Assembly (NCBI GenBank): GCA_014896485.1
Contig: JADBKH010000018.1
Coordinates: forward strand, 1 to 45,000
DNA length: 45,000 bases
Reading direction: 5' to 3'
Source of the DNA: Bacillota bacterium
GTDB taxonomy: Bacteria; Bacillota; Bacilli; Bu12
The position numbers were made by a program, and so were the translations under genes. The notes beneath the pieces are model-generated. The model was not told the origin of the DNA. It searched no databases and was given only the letters and a program-made list of their open reading frames with translations. This document shows positions 1,608-44,703 of this stretch, one piece after another (positions within the stretch are counted from its first letter, which is position 1; every line of letters starts with the position of its first letter).

Positions 1608-3242
1608 GTGAATGTGACCGATTACGATAGCACTTATCGCAGTTTTCAGTGGGAAGTGCCGCAACTTTTTAACTTTGCGCGGGATACGTTTGACCGTCAT
1701 GCCAATGCTACCCCTCAGCGACGAGCGATGCTATGGGTCGACGAAACAGGGCATGTACGCGATCTCTCTTTTGGCTATTTTGCCGAGCAGTCCCGTCGCT
1801 TTGCCGCTGCTCTGACTCAACGTGGCGTCACCCGCGGATCGACTGTCTTGTTGCTTTTGCCGCGTCTGACGGCGTGGTGGGAATCGATCTTGGGTTGCTT
1901 GCGTGCGGGTCTGATCGCCTCCCCAGGTACGATACAGCTAACGGCGGAAGATTTGGCCTATCGACTGGAAGCAGCAGAGATCGCAGCGGTGGTGACCGAC
2001 GCGGAGAACGCACCCAAGGTCGACGAGGCGCTCTCCCAAAGCGGCCATGCCGTTCGCGCCAAGCTGCTCTGTGGCGGGCAGCGGGAAGGCTGGGAGTCCT
2101 ATGATCAGGTATTAGAACAAGCTCCGGCCATATTTGAAGCGGCCGATACCCATGCCGACGATCCTGCTATGCTCTTCTTTACTTCCGGTACGACAGGCAA
2201 GCCGAAGATGGCCTTGCACACCCAGGCCTCGTATGGCATTGGTCATTACGTGACCGGTTACTTTTGGCTCGATTTGACACCGGACGATCTGCATTGGAAC
2301 CTCTCCGATACCGGGTGGGCAAAGGCAGGCTGGAGCAGCTTCTTTGGCCCCTGGACGATCGGGGCGGCCGTCTTTGTCCAACACGCTGCCCGTTTCTCCT
2401 CCAAAGAGACATTGCAGCTGCTTGCCACCTACCCGATCACCACCTTCTGCGGTGCTCCAACCAACTATCGCATGCTGATACAAGAAGATCTGTCCCAGTA
2501 TCGCTTTCCCCATCTACGCCACTGTGTTGCGGCAGGCGAACCGCTCAATCCCGAGGTGATCAATGTCTGGAAAGAGGCGACGGGGCTGACAATTCGCGAT
2601 GGTTTTGGGCAGACGGAGACGGTCCTGGTCTGCGGAAATTTGCCTTGTTTTGAGGTAAAGCCCGGCTCGATGGGCAAGCCGATGCCGGGCTTTGTGGTAT
2701 CGACGATCGATGAGGAGGGGCGTGAACTGCCGCCTGGGCAAGAAGGGGATATTGCCATTCGGGTCCGGCCGCAGCGCCCAGTTGGCCTCTTTAAAGCGTA
2801 TTGGAAAGAGCCGGAGCGTACGGCTGCTTGCTATCGCGGTGACTGGTATTTGACCGGTGATCGGGGCATGCGCGACGAAGACGGTTATCTGTGGTTTGTC
2901 GGTCGTTCCGATGATGTCATCCTCTCTTCGGCCTATCGGATTGGACCATTTGAGATCGAGAGCGTCTTGCTAGAGCATCCCGCTGTCGCCGAATCGGCGG
3001 TCGTTGCCAGTCCCGATCCCCTCCGTGGCAATATCGTCAAGGCGTTTGTCGTCTTGACAGAGGGCTACACGCCCAGTGAGGCGCTGGTCAAAGAATTGCA
3101 GCAGTTCGTCCAGCAAAAGACAGCGCCCTACAAGTATCCCCGGGAGATCGAATTCATCGACGAGCTTCCCAAGACGGTCAGCGGCAAGATCCGCCGTGTC
3201 GAGCTGCGTGAGCGGGAATTGCACAAAAAGGCGCAGGCATAG
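1608..3242 (+). CDS. Acyl-CoA synthetase (AMP-forming, medium-chain/acetyl-CoA synthetase-like)
   Basis: This 544-residue enzyme of the ANL superfamily would activate a carboxylic acid to its acyl-adenylate and then its CoA thioester. Visible core motifs are the phosphate-binding loop FFTSGTTGKPK (about residues 190-200), DGFGQTE, YLTGDRG, the hinge/adenine region GRSDDVILSSAYRIGPFEIE, and KTVSGKIRR with the catalytic lysine at 527. Length and the aromatic-rich segment HWNLSDTGWAKAGW place it with the acetate/medium-chain group (ACSM, YtcI) rather than long-chain ligases. The start is GTG with AGGGGG upstream and its own promoter. It is monocistronic. Whether it prefers acetate, propionate or a longer or aromatic acid cannot be told from the sequence. 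Confidence 0.85.
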   Translation: MNVTDYDSTYRSFQWEVPQLFNFARDTFDRHANATPQRRAMLWVDETGHVRDLSFGYFAEQSRRFAAALTQRGVTRGSTVLLLLPRLTAWWESILGCLRAGLIASPGTIQLTAEDLAYRLEAAEIAAVVTDAENAPKVDEALSQSGHAVRAKLLCGGQREGWESYDQVLEQAPAIFEAADTHADDPAMLFFTSGTTGKPKMALHTQASYGIGHYVTGYFWLDLTPDDLHWNLSDTGWAKAGWSSFFGPWTIGAAVFVQHAARFSSKETLQLLATYPITTFCGAPTNYRMLIQEDLSQYRFPHLRHCVAAGEPLNPEVINVWKEATGLTIRDGFGQTETVLVCGNLPCFEVKPGSMGKPMPGFVVSTIDEEGRELPPGQEGDIAIRVRPQRPVGLFKAYWKEPERTAACYRGDWYLTGDRGMRDEDGYLWFVGRSDDVILSSAYRIGPFEIESVLLEHPAVAESAVVASPDPLRGNIVKAFVVLTEGYTPSEALVKELQQFVQQKTAPYKYPREIEFIDELPKTVSGKIRRVELRERELHKKAQA

Positions 3243-3289
3243 TTTCGCCCCCATTCAGCGGTGAAATCGGGGCCGTTGGGAATGGGTAT

Positions 3290-4123
3290 TCAGTCGTCTT
3301 GAGCAACCTTGATGGCCAGCATCTCTTTGGCTTTGGTCCGATCGCCGGTACAGCTGATCATCCGCGGCGCATCGAGAAAGTACAGCGTAAAGCCTAAGGA
3401 ATCGTACAGCGATACGATTCGCTCGGTCGCTTGGTTGGAGGCAACGACGGTATTCGGGAGCGCTGCCAACCAATGGGCCAGACGCAGCTGGTCTTCCCAC
3501 GAAAAACCATCCGCAGCATACTGCCGAAAGGGCACATCGTACGGTGGGTCTGCATAGATGAAATCGCTTTCTTGAATGCGGAGTGCTTCAAAATCGCCTG
3601 AGGAGAACGTCCAGCGCTGGAACAGGCTGCGGTAAGCCGAAAAATCGGCTTGGTAGGAGATGTGCTTGTACCTGCCAAAGGGTACGTTGAACGCCCCGCC
3701 GCTGTTAAACCGGCACAAGCCGTTGTAGCCCGTGTGGTTGAGGTAGTAAAAGAGCGCCACTGCCTCTTTGCTGTTCCCTTTACCGGCTTTCAAAAGCGCA
3801 TTGAATCGATCGCGATAGGCATAGTAGGTTGCTGAGTCATTTTCCATTTTCAGATCGATCACTAACCCCTGTTGTATCCACCGATAAAACGAGATGAGGT
3901 GTGGGTTAATGTCATTGAGCAAGGCACGATCCGGCAGCAAACCGAGCGTGACGGCCAACCCGCCGCAAAAGGGCTCGACCAACCGCGCTTTGGGGTAGCG
4001 TGTACGATGTACTTCCCAAAGCGGCTGCAGATGAGGCACGAGCCAGCGTTTGCCTCCTGCCCACTTAAGTGGCGGCCGTGGTACGGGCATTTTCTTTTGC
4101 GCGATCAGCTGCGTTTTCGGCAA
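3290..4123 (-). CDS. D12-class DNA adenine N6-methyltransferase (Dam-like), apparently orphan
   Basis: A 277-residue SAM-dependent DNA methyltransferase. PPLKWAGGKR near the N-terminus and VEPFCGGLAV are the two SAM-site motifs, and DPPY (residues 192-195) is the catalytic motif of adenine-N6 methylases. The order and size fit the D12/Dam family, whose best-known target is GATC. The start is TTG at 4123; an in-frame ATG at 4090 would still leave motif X intact. No restriction endonuclease gene is next to it: the neighbours are an acyl-CoA synthetase (convergent) and an ABC exporter. It is therefore an orphan methylase here, possibly regulatory or a relic of a restriction-modification system. 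The recognition site cannot be read from the protein. Confidence 0.85.
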   Translation of the reverse strand: MPKTQLIAQKKMPVPRPPLKWAGGKRWLVPHLQPLWEVHRTRYPKARLVEPFCGGLAVTLGLLPDRALLNDINPHLISFYRWIQQGLVIDLKMENDSATYYAYRDRFNALLKAGKGNSKEAVALFYYLNHTGYNGLCRFNSGGAFNVPFGRYKHISYQADFSAYRSLFQRWTFSSGDFEALRIQESDFIYADPPYDVPFRQYAADGFSWEDQLRLAHWLAALPNTVVASNQATERIVSLYDSLGFTLYFLDAPRMISCTGDRTKAKEMLAIKVAQDD

Positions 4124-5222: not shown

Positions 5223-7018
5223 GAGTGCCTGCTTCTTCACGCGGCGTAGGACAGGAACTGTGGCTTTTGCTGCGCTTGGAATGGAAACACATGGGGAGAA
5301 GTGGGAACAGCAAAGCGGTGGTCCTGGCTGCGCTGGTTGGCTTCCTCGTCCTCTTGGGACTGCTAGGATTTTTTCTGAGCTTCTTGTTAAGCGTGATGGA
5401 TCCCTTTTACGGGACGCGGCTGCTTGGACTTCTCTTTTGTGTCGCCGCTTTGATCGCTGCGCTGATGGGGGTGAGCAGTTCATTGAACAGCCTCTATACC
5501 GGGGCCGAGCTGCCCCTATTGTTCTCTGCCCCCGTGCACATGTGGACGCTCTTTGTCGCCCGTACGCTCGACATGCTCTCTACGGCAGCGTTGTTCAGTT
5601 TGGCGATAGGCGTGGGCCCAGCCATCTTCGCCGGGCTTTCTTGGCACGAGGGTGCGCTCTTCTACGTGCTCGTGGTGGTCGCTTGGTTGGGGAGTATCGG
5701 GTTGGGAGCTGTGATCGATCTCGTCCTCCTCTTTTTGCTCATGCGGGTCATCGCTCCCCAGCGGCTCCAAGAAGCGGTCAGCGTGCTGCAGATGATTGTC
5801 GGAGCGGGTTTCGGCATCGGCATGGGCCTGCTGGGTGCCTCTGGAAACCATCTTCTCATCCGAGCTCAATCCGGCGATGCCTTTTTGCAAGGCCTGCACA
5901 GGTTCGATGGATGGCCTCCGGGCTGGATCGGCGCTGGATTGGACATACCCTGGTCCGGCATCTCTGGACTTTTGCCGTTGGTTGGATGGCTGGCTTTGGG
6001 CGTCGGAGGCTACGTTGGGATGGTGCTCCTTCTGGCACGCTCGTACCTCCAAGGGTGGGCTGGTTTGGCCGAAGGTGGGGGCGCCAGGCGCCGTCAGCAC
6101 CAGAAGGCCTCCGAGCGGCATCAAGGGAAAGCTACGCCGCTTACCTCAGGCTTTTTTACTCCTCTTCGTACGCCACCTGCAGAGCGCTTTCTGCGTGCCA
6201 CTTATGCCATTGCTCGCAAAGATCTCAAGAGCATGTTGCGCGATGCGCGACAATGGGTCGGCCTTTTCAGCATCGTGCTGATGATCGGGTTTTTTATCGT
6301 GATGTCCATACAGGTCAGCGAGGAGCCGGCTGCGGGGCCCAACCTCCCTGTATTGTTCGTCTATCTGTTCATCGCTTTGCTCGTCGGGGGAGGGACATTG
6401 GGGCTCAACGCCTTTGGGCGGGAAGGGTTGGCGGTATGGGTCGTCAATGCTTCGCCGCTTTCTGGGTGGCCGCTGGTCTGGGCGAAGTTCCTCGTCTCCC
6501 TTTTTCCCGTACTCGTTGTGTTCGAGGGAGCCACGCTTTTTACGGTCTTGGCATTGCTACATCTGTCTGCTACTTTCTCAGCGATCTTGGCGTTGGCAGT
6601 GGCTTTGCTGCTCGTTGGATTGGTGGCAATCTCCCTCTGGGTTTCAGCAGGGCATGCCCGCTACAATCCGGAAAATCCTTCTTCTACTTTGGATCCGGCA
6701 GGAATGCTTCCGCTGTATGCAGCCAGCTTCATCTATCTGTTGTTGGTCGGCTACGGCTGCACGGTTGCGCTTTTGCCAGAGTCCGTTTCGGCAATGGTGG
6801 CGCAAAATGGGCCCACTTGGTTGCAAATGGTCCTTCTGCCAGCCACTTGGCCCGGTATCGCCAACGAGCTCTTTGGCTGGGGATGGAGTGGCCTGTTCTT
6901 TGTCTTTTGTCTCTACTACTTCCTGCGCAGTACTGTACAAGCTGTTCGGGAAGGGGTACAGGTGACAGTGGTGCACGGCACGAGAACAGGTAGGAGAGGA
7001 CGTTTTTCACGCGGTTAG
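5219..7018 (+). CDS. ABC-2-type exporter permease (large, about 12 TM)
   Basis: A 599-residue membrane protein of the putative ABC exporter family that pairs with EcsA/YthP-like ATPases. It has two hydrophobic halves, roughly residues 35-285 and 345-585, separated by a basic hydrophilic stretch of about 60 residues (GGARRRQHQKASERHQGK region). It begins at the ATG overlapping the stop of the ATPase gene. Its 3' end overlaps the end of the minus-strand azlC remnant by 12 bases. A second frame over the same DNA is also open for about 600 codons, but it encodes an Arg/Gly/Cys-rich sequence without helices and is taken as a shadow. The cargo is unknown. Confidence 0.75.
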   Translation: MRVPASSRGVGQELWLLLRLEWKHMGRSGNSKAVVLAALVGFLVLLGLLGFFLSFLLSVMDPFYGTRLLGLLFCVAALIAALMGVSSSLNSLYTGAELPLLFSAPVHMWTLFVARTLDMLSTAALFSLAIGVGPAIFAGLSWHEGALFYVLVVVAWLGSIGLGAVIDLVLLFLLMRVIAPQRLQEAVSVLQMIVGAGFGIGMGLLGASGNHLLIRAQSGDAFLQGLHRFDGWPPGWIGAGLDIPWSGISGLLPLVGWLALGVGGYVGMVLLLARSYLQGWAGLAEGGGARRRQHQKASERHQGKATPLTSGFFTPLRTPPAERFLRATYAIARKDLKSMLRDARQWVGLFSIVLMIGFFIVMSIQVSEEPAAGPNLPVLFVYLFIALLVGGGTLGLNAFGREGLAVWVVNASPLSGWPLVWAKFLVSLFPVLVVFEGATLFTVLALLHLSATFSAILALAVALLLVGLVAISLWVSAGHARYNPENPSSTLDPAGMLPLYAASFIYLLLVGYGCTVALLPESVSAMVAQNGPTWLQMVLLPATWPGIANELFGWGWSGLFFVFCLYYFLRSTVQAVREGVQVTVVHGTRTGRRGRFSRG

Positions 7019-40159: not shown

Positions 40160-40579
40160 GTGCAGCAATGGTTGGCATGGGCGCTGTTGGCGATGCTCTG
40201 CTACGGGATCGCTCCAGTGTTCGAAAAAGAAGGATTGACACGCATCGATCCCATCACCGCGGTCATGTTCCGCGGCTTTCTGGTGGGCTTTATCCTGCTT
40301 ATCTATCAACTGGCGAGCGGGCATGGTCCATTGATTCGTGAAGTCTCGCCTTCTGGTCTTGCGCTCGTTTTGCTTGGCTCGGTCTTTGGAGTGCTTTTGG
40401 CGCAGACTTTTTACTTTCAAGCGCTGCGGCAGGGATCTGTCGGACAAGTCGTGCCGGTTACCGGGGCTTGGCCGCTGGTGGCCGTTTTGTTATCGATGCT
40501 GTTTTTTCATGAACCATTGAGTTGGCCTCGTGCGGCAGGGGCGGTTTTGGTGGTTGCAGGGCTGCTGCTGCTGCGCTGA
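40160..40579 (+). CDS. Half-size EamA-domain transporter
   Basis: A 139-residue membrane protein with a single EamA domain and about five hydrophobic helices. It ends with the family pattern of the last helices: GQVVPVTGAWPLVAVLLSML, FFHEPLSWPRAAGAVLVVAG. Full EamA (DMT superfamily) proteins have two such domains in about 300 residues; half-size members probably act as dimers, like small multidrug or undecaprenyl-linked carriers. The start is GTG with GGGGG ten bases upstream; no ATG is available in this frame before conserved sequence. It lies between the dipeptidase and tsaC on the same strand. Substrate unknown. Confidence 0.8.
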   Translation: MQQWLAWALLAMLCYGIAPVFEKEGLTRIDPITAVMFRGFLVGFILLIYQLASGHGPLIREVSPSGLALVLLGSVFGVLLAQTFYFQALRQGSVGQVVPVTGAWPLVAVLLSMLFFHEPLSWPRAAGAVLVVAGLLLLR

Positions 40580-40614: not shown

Positions 40615-41676
40615 GTGGCGTGTCAGTGGGTGATTTTGGATGCCGATCAAGCACGTTGGACCGAAGTGTTGGAAGCACCAGCACAGGCATTGCGGGAGGG
40701 GCGGCTCGTCGCTTTTCCGACCGAGACCGTCTACGGCCTTGGCGCCAATGCTTTCGATGCCGCAGCAGTGCAGGGGATCTACCGGGCGAAAGGTCGACCC
40801 AGCGATAACCCATTGATCGTCCATCTCGCCGATGTACAGGAGGTTAGGAAGGTGGCAAGCGCATTTCCAGCGATTGCGCAGCGCCTTGCAGCCCGTTTTT
40901 GGCCGGGGCCGCTCACCTTAGTGCTGCCAGCCCGTCCCCAGCTGCCCCGTGTCACATTGGGGGGGCTGCAGACCGTGGCTGTCCGCTTGCCCAGCCATCC
41001 GGTCGCCCAACAGCTCCTGCGCCTGGCCAACGTCCCGGTTGCGGCACCGTCGGCCAACCGTTCCGGACGGCCGAGCCCGACGACAGCGGCCCATGTCTTT
41101 GCTGATCTGGGCGATCGCATCGATTACCTGATCGACGGTGGTCCCTGCTTGGTCGGTGTCGAATCGACGGTATTGGACGTAACTGTAACCCCTCCGGTAC
41201 TCCTGCGGCCAGGAGGCATTCCAAAAGAAGTGTTGGAGGCGACGGTAGGAGCGATTGAAGTCCCTGCGCCGTTGCAACCGGGGGAGCACCCCCGGGCGCC
41301 AGGGATGAAGTATCGCCACTATGCACCCCAGGCACCTCTGCTTCTTTTGGAGGGGCCCTTTCCGGCAGTCGTACAGGCAGCGCGAGAAGAACTTTGGCTG
41401 GCCGAGCAGGCGGGAGCATCTACCGGGCTGATCACCGATCGTGCCTATGCCGCACAGCTTTCCGCTACGGTTGTGCGCATCCTCGGCGATCCGGGAGAGA
41501 CGCAAGCCGCTGCAGCGGCCCTTTTTGACGCCCTGCGGGCCATGGATCAAGCGGGCGTTGACCGTATCCTTGCTACCCCTTGGCCGCGACGGGGGGTGGG
41601 GGAAGCCGTAATGAACCGTCTGGAAAAAGCGGCAGGTGGTCATGTGCGACGTGTGGGAACCCCTGCCGAGGCGTGA
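40615..41676 (+). CDS. tsaC: L-threonylcarbamoyladenylate synthase (YwlC/Sua5 form)
   Basis: A 353-residue enzyme that makes threonylcarbamoyl-AMP from threonine, bicarbonate and ATP, the first step of the t6A37 tRNA modification. The YrdC/TsaC domain (about residues 1-210) has VAFPTETVYGLGANAF, YRAKGRPSDNPLIVH with the KxR motif, the FWPGPLTLVLP block and AAPSANRSGRPSPT with SxN. The C-terminal Sua5 domain (about 235-353) is connected by PRAPGMKYRHYAPQAP, so this is the long TsaC2 form used by Bacillus. The start is GTG with AGGGAGGGAAA upstream. Position corresponds to ywlC. Confidence 0.93.
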   Translation: MACQWVILDADQARWTEVLEAPAQALREGRLVAFPTETVYGLGANAFDAAAVQGIYRAKGRPSDNPLIVHLADVQEVRKVASAFPAIAQRLAARFWPGPLTLVLPARPQLPRVTLGGLQTVAVRLPSHPVAQQLLRLANVPVAAPSANRSGRPSPTTAAHVFADLGDRIDYLIDGGPCLVGVESTVLDVTVTPPVLLRPGGIPKEVLEATVGAIEVPAPLQPGEHPRAPGMKYRHYAPQAPLLLLEGPFPAVVQAAREELWLAEQAGASTGLITDRAYAAQLSATVVRILGDPGETQAAAAALFDALRAMDQAGVDRILATPWPRRGVGEAVMNRLEKAAGGHVRRVGTPAEA

Positions 41677-41728: not shown

Positions 41729-42457
41729 ATGAACGCAATGCTGGTCAGCCTTGCGGCAGGAATGTGCACCCTCCTTGGTGCCGCATTGGCTTGGCAGATC
41801 GGGCATCCTGGCGAGGGGCTGCTGCATGGGTTGCTGGGGTTTGCAGCTGGGATGATGGTCATCATCACGTTCATCGATCTTCTTCCGGAATCTGCTTCTG
41901 GTGGACGCCCAGCACTGCTCACCTTCCTTGTCGCCCTCTTTCTTTTTGCGGTGGCGATTCGTCTTTTACAACCTGTGCCTGCCCTTTCTGCGAGCCAATC
42001 GTCGGGCAGTGCCCAGGCGTACCTGCGGATGGGGTGGACATTGGTCGCTGCAATTGCGTTGCACGATCTTCCCGAAGGATTTGCCATTGGCGCTGCGACA
42101 GGGGAAAACGTGCGGACGGGAACCGCCGTTGCACTCGCGTTGGCCGCACACAATGTGCCGGAGGGAATCACGATCGCGGTTCCCTTTTTGGCTGCAAAGG
42201 GCCGAAACCCACTTCCCCTCTTGCTGGCAGGATTGGATGCGCTGCTTTCGCCCCTTGGAACGGCGGCAGCTGGGTGGGTCTCTCAAAGTGCTGTAACAGG
42301 TGGGGTCGTTTTGGCCGATGCGATCGCTGCAGGAGCAATGTTGGCGGTCTGTGCCGTGGAATTGCTGCCCGAAGCGTTCTCGCAGCGTAGGAGGGCTGCC
42401 TTGCTCGGGTGCTGCTGCGGCGCCGTATTGGCGGCGATATTTGGTTTGGCATTGTGA
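41729..42457 (+). CDS. ZIP family metal transporter
   Basis: A 242-residue membrane protein with eight hydrophobic segments. Helices 4 and 5 contain the metal-binding pair HDLPEGFAIGAA and HNVPEGITIAVP, characteristic of ZIP proteins that import zinc or other divalent metals (ZupT/GufA group). The interhelical loop between helices 3 and 4 is short and lacks a long His-rich region. The ATG at 41729 follows GCCGGGAGG. At this position B. subtilis has ywlD, a MntP-like manganese exporter; here an unrelated metal carrier is present. Metal selectivity cannot be read from the sequence. Confidence 0.88.
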   Translation: MNAMLVSLAAGMCTLLGAALAWQIGHPGEGLLHGLLGFAAGMMVIITFIDLLPESASGGRPALLTFLVALFLFAVAIRLLQPVPALSASQSSGSAQAYLRMGWTLVAAIALHDLPEGFAIGAATGENVRTGTAVALALAAHNVPEGITIAVPFLAAKGRNPLPLLLAGLDALLSPLGTAAAGWVSQSAVTGGVVLADAIAAGAMLAVCAVELLPEAFSQRRRAALLGCCCGAVLAAIFGLAL

Positions 42458-42505: not shown

Positions 42506-43387
42506 ATGCGCATCCTCTTTGTCTGTAGTGGAAATACGTGTCGTTCGCCGATGGCTGCTGCCGTTGCGCCAGAGATCGGAAAACGTCTCGGCATTCCCGT
42601 AGAAGCACGTTCGGCTGGGTTGTTCGCCATTGCCGGGTTGCCTCTCTCTGATGAAGCTGCTGCGACGCTGCGGAATCACCAGATAACGCCGCCGGATCAC
42701 CGCTCTCTGCCGGTCGGCGAAGAGGATCTTTTGTGGGCCGATCGCATCGTCGCCATGACAGCCGATCATGCAGCGGCGCTTCGCGCTCGCTTTCCCGAGA
42801 TTGCAACGAAAGTGGAAAACCTCTCCGAATGGGCCGGGGAGACGATCAGTGATCCGGTCGGACGTGGACAGCAAGCGTACGAGACCGCCTTTGCTCGTAT
42901 CGAACGGGGGATCACGCGTCTGTTGAAAGCAGATCAGCAGCCCCCTGCCTCCGCAAGTCCCACAAGTGGGCACATCCAGGAAACGGCGGATGGGCGCCTG
43001 CTTATCGTGTCGGATGAAGAGGGCGCGGCGTTGGCAGAGGCATTGACCCAAGCATTTCACGGCCTGGGGATGCCCGTGGAACGCCTTCCTGCGGCAGCGA
43101 GCGACCCACAGAGGATCGCCCTGCTGCTGGAAGACGCAGCGAAGCAGCAGGAGGGGGAGCTTGCTGTCGCTGTCAATGCATTGGGGTTTGATGTGGCCAT
43201 GGCGGCAAATCGTTCCACCTTTTTGCGCGCCGTCTTTGCCACCGATCCGACCGTTGCTGCCACTGCAAGGCGAACAGGTGCCGATCTGTTGTGTCTGGGA
43301 GCCGCTTTTTCTGGTGTGGAAAGTGGGCGGGCGATGGTACGGGCTTTCTTGTTTCCACAAAGCTTGCTGGAAGGATCACCCCGGTGA
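42506..43387 (+). CDS. ywlE: Protein arginine phosphatase (YwlE type) fused to a degenerate RpiB domain
   Basis: A 293-residue fusion. Residues 1-150 are a low-molecular-weight phosphatase: the P-loop CSGNTCRS starts at Cys7 and has Thr11, the residue that marks the arginine phosphatase YwlE rather than tyrosine phosphatases; the general acid is Asp116 in SDPVG. A Pro/Ala/Ser linker follows. Residues about 163-290 resemble ribose-5-phosphate isomerase [32 protein letters not shown] and the AMVRAFL end. But the RpiB catalytic Cys is Asn (N224) and the His-Asn pair is Arg-Thr, so isomerase activity should be lost. In B. subtilis ywlE and ywlF (rpiB) are adjacent separate genes. ATG at 42506 with AGGAGGGG upstream. 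Its end overlaps a possible glyA start. Confidence 0.88.
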
Positions 43388-43416: not shown

Positions 43417-44703
43417 GTGCAATCTTGGGAAGAAGGCCCTTTGGCCGCATTGCGCGAGGCAGATCCCGAGCTGTATCAGGGGGTTATGGGCGAATTACAC
43501 CGGCAACGGGAAACGGTCGAACTCATCGCTTCTGAAAACTTCGTTTCACCAGCCGTCTTGGCTGCGATGGGGAGTGTGCTGACCAACAAGTATGCGGAAG
43601 GTACACCTGGCCATCGCTATTACGGTGGTTGCGAATGGATCGACGTCGTAGAGAAGTTGGCTCAGGAACGGGTCAAAGCACTCTTTGGGGCAGAGCATGC
43701 CAACGTACAGCCCCATTCGGGGGCGCAGGCGAACCTGGCCGCCTATTGGGCACTGATTGAGCCGGGAGACACAATTTTGGGCATGGATCTGAGCCAGGGC
43801 GGGCATCTGACGCACGGCTCCCCCGCCAATTTCTCTGGACGTCTCTACCACGTTGTCTCCTATGGGGTCGATCCCGACAGCGAACAGATTGATTACGAGG
43901 CTGTGGCCGAACTGGCGCACCAGTACAAGCCTAAACTGATTGTCGCAGGGGCTTCCGCTTATCCGCGACGCATTGACTTTGCCCGCTTCCATGAGATTGC
44001 AGAGGAGATCGGCGCCCTGCTGATGGTCGATATGGCCCATATCGCCGGTATCGTTGCTGTCGGGCGACACCCCTCTCCGGTTCCCTATGCCGATGTGGTC
44101 ACTTCGACGACCCACAAGACGCTACGAGGCCCGCGCGGGGGATTCATTCTCTCGTCGCAGCGCTGGCGCAAAGCCGTCGATCATGCGGTCTTTCCCGGGA
44201 CGCAAGGGGGGCCTTTGGAGCATATCATCGCTGCCAAGGCTGTTGCTTTCCATGAAGCTGCGCAACCGGCATTTGCCGAGTACATCGATCGCGTATTGGC
44301 CAATGCCCAGATGCTGGCACAGACGTTGGTGCAACGGGGACTTCGCCTTGTCTCCGGTGGTACAGAGAACCACCTGCTGTTGGTCGATCTCCGGCCCAAA
44401 GGGTTGACAGGGATCGTGGCTGAACAGGCACTGGATCAAGCGGGTATCACCGTCAATCACAACGCGATTCCCTTTGATCCGCAGAAGCCGACGATCACCA
44501 GCGGTATCCGGATCGGTACGCCAGCGGTGACCACACGTGGCATGGGGCTTGCAGAAATGCAGGAGTTGGGCGAGATCATCGCCGACGTGCTCGATCATCC
44601 ACAAGAGGAGCAGGTACTGCAACAAGGCCGAGAACGCACCCGTCGGATGCTGGAGCGTTTTCCCCTCTACCCACAGTGGGGCTCGGGATCGGAAATGTCT
44701 TAG
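43417..44703 (+). CDS. glyA: Serine hydroxymethyltransferase
   Basis: A 428-residue PLP enzyme that converts serine and tetrahydrofolate to glycine and methylene-THF. The N-terminal [19 protein letters not shown] and [17 protein letters not shown], the PLP region [17 protein letters not shown], the Asp of [13 protein letters not shown] and the Schiff-base Lys234 in [14 protein letters not shown] are all standard. The GTG at 43417 is preferred because AGGGAGAG is nine bases upstream; an in-frame GTG at 43384 overlaps the ywlE stop and would add 11 residues. It follows ywlE as in B. subtilis, but no upp gene lies between glyA and the atp operon. Confidence 0.96.

Follow-up and report, generated by a model that had tools for sequence, protein, structure and literature searches.

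Does a gene that fuses a protein-arginine phosphatase to a ribose 5-phosphate isomerase still encode two working enzymes and, if one half has failed, why has that half been kept? The question is raised by a single uninterrupted frame at 42506-43387 on the plus strand of the window, a 45,000-nucleotide stretch of a Bacillota genome, which encodes 293 amino acids plus a stop codon. A preliminary description had read this frame as a YwlE-type phosphatase joined to an RpiB-like half, and Pfam bears out both domains: LMWPc at residues 3-140 (42512-42925; E 2e-25) and LacAB_rpiB (PF02502) at residues 166-282 (E 5.5e-11, 43 bits). Because the latter score exceeds the curated cut-off of 24.7, the C-terminal domain is not a chance resemblance to RpiB, and the order of phosphatase then RpiB within one frame is that of the YwlE-RpiB fusion family. 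The two are separated by a flexible linker at residues 147-158 (42944-42979; AlphaFold2 pLDDT <50), and the degenerate RpiB domain defined by profile and alignment spans residues 164-293 (42995-43384) and is without the RpiB C-terminal tail.

The fusion gene follows, on the same strand, genes for threonylcarbamoyladenylate synthase (YwlC/Sua5; 40615-41676) and a ZIP-family metal transporter (ZupT-like; 41729-42457), and precedes glyA (serine hydroxymethyltransferase; 43462-44703), whose nearest GlyA matches come from the class of the window genome (Alicyclobacillaceae MAG L058, 66% identity). The wider gene order is prfA, prmC, spoIIR, a pepV-like gene, an EamA-type transporter piece, ywlC, the ZIP transporter, the fusion gene and glyA, surroundings that we take to resemble the ywl region of B. 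subtilis, minus ywlG. The EamA-type frame, at 40160-40579 and 5' of ywlC, is only 139 amino acids long and matches a carboxylate/amino acid/amine transporter model over its C-terminal half (positions 130-264 of the 264-position profile).

The LMW-PTP fold, the C(X)4-5R(S/T) P-loop and the Asp general acid are all present in the N-terminal half by profile, alignment and model. The P-loop CSGNTCRS (residues 7-14; 42524-42547) supplies the nucleophile Cys7 together with Thr11, Cys12 and Arg13, and both this loop and the general acid Asp116 with Pro117 (42851-42856) are invariant in the phosphatase alignment, with the residues as first described. Thr at P-loop position 5 steers LMW phosphatases to phosphoarginine (PMC8001253), and it is Thr, not Ile, that occupies this selectivity position in the window protein. 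By sequence and fold matches, the nearest solved structures to this half are 4egs and the YwlE structures 4pic, 4kk3 and 1zgg. The genome encodes the protein-arginine kinase McsB, in one cluster with McsA and CtsR, so the substrate system is present. The N-terminal half is best explained as a working protein-arginine phosphatase of the YwlE type, a reading that we consider probable from these residues and that carries with it a predicted specificity for phosphoarginine.

The C-terminal half was compared in an alignment with 108 homologues from fetched loci and with E. coli RpiB, whose sequence had been verified against 1nn4/2vvr. Its RpiB-family score is 45 bits, whereas full-length matches in 60 class relatives score 107-217 and one partial match scores 66; NCBIfam RpiB models match far under their cut-offs (40.8 bits vs 135 for PRK05571). 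In RpiB, the Cys, Thr and His and the phosphate-binding His/Arg residues have been shown or modelled to serve catalysis or phosphate anchoring (PMC4783025). The window protein has SDEEG (residues 169-173; 43010-43024) where RpiB has xDHxG, so that His10 is replaced by Glu171, and NALGFD (residues 224-229; 43175-43192) where RpiB has CGTGxG, with Cys66 replaced by Asn224, Gly67 by Ala225, Thr68 by Leu226 and Gly71 by Asp229. At RRTGAD (residues 255-260; 43268-43285), where RpiB has RxHNDxN, Asn100 is replaced by Thr257 and His99 is deleted (RR-TG against xHND in homologues). Tyr43 is replaced by Pro201, and Arg137 falls beyond the stop codon. Neither Cys66 nor a known substitute is therefore present, His99 is missing, and among the phosphate anchors His10, Arg133 and Arg137 only the second has a counterpart, the terminal Arg293. 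Residues retained are Asp9, Asp42, Gly69, Ala76-Asn77, Arg83 and Arg97 (E. coli RpiB numbering). A frameshift or assembly error behind the missing Cys was ruled out, as the flanks of every lost residue align in one frame.

The loss of Cys and His on which the preliminary description based a dead isomerase half is thus confirmed, and no full active site emerges after alignment; the damage had been under-reported, as His10, Tyr43, Gly67, Thr68, Gly71, Asn100 and the tail with Arg137 have gone too. Because the base, the oxyanion loop and the phosphate clamp were lost together, an isomerase, or a sensor that uses the old site, is unlikely, and the half is on balance best explained as a catalytically dead pseudoenzyme domain. 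It is very improbable that it is still an isomerase with altered catalysis, like RpiB variants with another base such as Glu75 of M. tuberculosis RpiB. RpiB sites do vary, with Asp and Tyr for Cys66 and His99 in three sequences beside phosphatase genes, and Asp229 sits in the catalytic loop of the window protein; against this, the loop glycines, Thr68, His10, Tyr43, His99, Asn100 and Arg137 are all gone together, the genome holds an intact RpiA, and the Glu75 position is presumably Val230. One of the three lies at 5441-5854 of locus L074 and the like sequences are in two other loci; all adjoin LMW phosphatase genes, share the pattern DHYDGSGGVYNDRR and have the rest of the site intact. They are probably RpiB-family isomerases that use a different catalytic base or act on a different substrate.

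The same fusion, which had been flagged as worth seeking in related genomes, occurs at 35 other loci in Bacillota. These comprise 27 from a search of 399 genomes of the phylum with a profile of fusions, in which both domains lay in one stop-free frame (27 of 398 sampled genomes), one from the same class (G043) and seven from named genome contigs, with two of the loci, L069 and L120, looking like one genome. The RpiB active site is kept in 35/35, all 14 scored positions being intact with minor substitutions only, and among the fusions found a dead isomerase half is present in the window fusion only. Unfused ywlE-rpiB neighbours are even more widespread, and in loci L033-L112 (Phycisphaerales, Planctomycetota and others) an LMW phosphatase gene adjoins an RpiB gene. 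As this adjacency extends far outside Bacillota, an old functional or regulatory link is suggested. In a single family of the class, L116 (G024) carries on the minus strand at 1680-3359 a ywlE with a C-terminal extension of ~60 residues beside a free rpiB, and L115 (G043) carries on the minus strand at 2480-3592 a ywlE fused to an intact rpiB. Since one family has both arrangements, fusion appears to be recent and repeated. The proposal that adjacent genes fused and the isomerase half then died fits these many intact fusions, and a fusion event shared with them may at most be supposed. Intact fusions being common, the joining of adjacent genes is ordinary; what is unusual is that the active site has been lost.

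A second intact rpiB, another item for which a search had been advised, is absent: the window genome is 96% complete and contains no other RpiB-family gene, and has the unrelated RpiA instead. This RpiA is intact, scores above the RpiA equivalog cut-offs and contains DGADE and KGGG...REK, which we take to be functional motifs of the enzyme. RpiA is present in 16/60 class relatives, of which six (G003, G006, G026, G029, G045 and G060) lack RpiB-family genes altogether; in a further three, all such genes score as LacA/LacB. True RpiB is absent from 9/16 RpiA carriers versus 1/44 genomes without RpiA (Fisher P 7e-6, a value inflated by relatedness), and the sole RpiB-less genome among the 44 is 86% complete. 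On gene content, the six are cases of non-homologous replacement of RpiB by RpiA in Bacilli-like families. RpiA is the likely reason that the RpiB half in the window became dispensable, and probably made it redundant. A free rpiB can be lost whole; this one, being fused to YwlE, would have eroded in place.

Redundancy with RpiA is also what would be expected if the RpiB half were a functionless, decaying tail whose frame is open merely because little time has passed, the main rival to a retained fold. The length of the terminal branch is in keeping with such decay: in the fusion trees it reaches 2.79 substitutions per site for the C-terminal half, the other fusions having a median of 0.19 and not exceeding 0.90, a rate ~15 times the homologues' median, whereas the branch of the N-terminal half (1.38) is inside the range of the others (maximum 1.71). 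Conserved positions have likewise been lost broadly, along with the C-terminal tail. Confinement of the loss to the active site was rejected, since conserved positions elsewhere were lost about as often and those kept outside it are not enriched (13/34 vs 4/13). For single buried hydrophobic columns, too, retention stays within the neutral expectation (P 0.11-0.21).

The coding properties of the half argue the other way. Internal gaps in its alignment are whole codons throughout, and its synonymous codon usage is that of the adjoining genes. Intact RpiB halves were neutrally mutated in 1000 simulation runs until their distance from the family equalled that of the window half; the frame was still open in 10% of runs, codon-position G+C bias reached the observed level in 4% and hydrophobic content in 2%. 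An open frame and such codon-position bias coincided in 0.4% (joint P about 0.004) and all three in 0/1000, figures that are approximate in that the ancestor, mutation spectrum and stopping rule were assumed. Because an in-frame half with this coding bias is rare under neutral decay, the C-terminal half has probably been kept folded, and a tail without function is, in our judgement, unlikely. With relatives in the alignment, AlphaFold2 gives the half pLDDT values mostly >90, a model that leans on RpiBs because the alignment is rich in them. Folded from its single sequence, the half reaches a pLDDT of 45, and that model was discarded as evidence of fold. The best 50 PDB matches listed by Foldseek are all phosphatases, with no RpiB structure among them.

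We therefore favour, as the probable though by no means certain explanation, a YwlE-type phosphatase whose fused RpiB became a pseudoenzyme through redundancy with RpiA, with its fold kept for structural reasons. ywlE and rpiB, operon neighbours across Bacillota, would have fused in frame, as they have repeatedly elsewhere; the genome would have acquired or kept RpiA, and because ribulose/ribose-5-phosphate would then be made by this enzyme, RpiB activity would have become dispensable. As the C-terminus of a needed phosphatase, the RpiB half would have escaped deletion; its active site and tail would have disappeared and its sequence would have diverged rapidly, but the fold and the frame would have persisted, the half most likely serving as a structural or oligomerisation appendage. 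The order of fusion, RpiA and decay is the one that we infer, and a structural or oligomerisation role is probable.

The persisting coding constraint would also suit a dead RpiB fold repurposed to control the phosphatase, whether by sensing a ligand or sugar phosphate or by docking McsB, ClpC or substrates. Glucose and Mn regulate ywlE in B. subtilis (PMC10448178), so a link to metabolism is conceivable. Yet the phosphate anchors and catalytic loop have been lost, which given their roles (PMC4783025) makes binding of sugar phosphates at the old site unlikely. Nor does any of 399 other class genomes offer a relative of the C-terminal half (E<=1e-7) that might reveal a new conserved surface, the order of the window genome being represented by one genome in the sample; viral contigs likewise held no relatives. 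Of the roles proposed in the preliminary description, sugar-phosphate sensing is unsupported with His10 and Arg137 gone, and dimerisation or targeting is possible. It is accordingly doubtful, and less probable than a decaying tail, that in this uncultured order the domain has become a regulatory or docking module dedicated to the phosphatase, through which removal of the McsB degradation mark would be tied to metabolism or quality control.

If the pseudoenzyme explanation holds, the locus would be a clean case of a fused enzyme domain that became a pseudoenzyme once a non-homologous enzyme, RpiA, took its reaction, the controls being the 35 fusions with an intact site and those RpiA carriers that have lost RpiB. 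The fusions also join the eraser of arginine phosphorylation to the pentose-phosphate pathway commonly in Bacillota, and no paper discussing them was found in the literature search. Were the dead domain to regulate YwlE, it would add a new point of control to arginine-phosphate protein degradation.

Among known systems, YwlE (4pic, 4kk3, 1zgg) shares with the window protein the Thr at the fifth P-loop position, Cys7, Cys12, Arg13 and the Asp-Pro pair, as well as McsB in the genome and operon surroundings of prfA, prmC, spoIIR, ywlC, a metal transporter and glyA; the window protein differs in its C-terminal RpiB-like domain of 130 residues, which a flexible linker attaches to the phosphatase. 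The closest solved phosphatase by sequence, the T. tengcongensis LMW phosphatase 4egs (E 1.3e-25), holds the phosphatase part only, but its molecule name is 'Ribose 5-phosphate isomerase RpiB', which suggests that its gene is itself such a fusion and received the RpiB annotation for that reason. The RpiB/LacA/LacB isomerases (PF02502; E. coli RpiB 2vvr) resemble the C-terminal half in its above-cut-off profile match and predicted alpha/beta fold, whereas the window half is without their catalytic and phosphate-binding residues. The Bacillota YwlE-RpiB fusions (L069 of Limnochordaceae; L115/G043 of the same class) have the same domain order in a single frame, and the linker of the window protein is within their range of lengths, but they keep the intact RpiB site of a bifunctional fusion, most of which, with the C-terminal tail, the window protein has lost. 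The locus thus belongs to a known kind, the YwlE-RpiB fusion, and what is new is that its isomerase half is dead.
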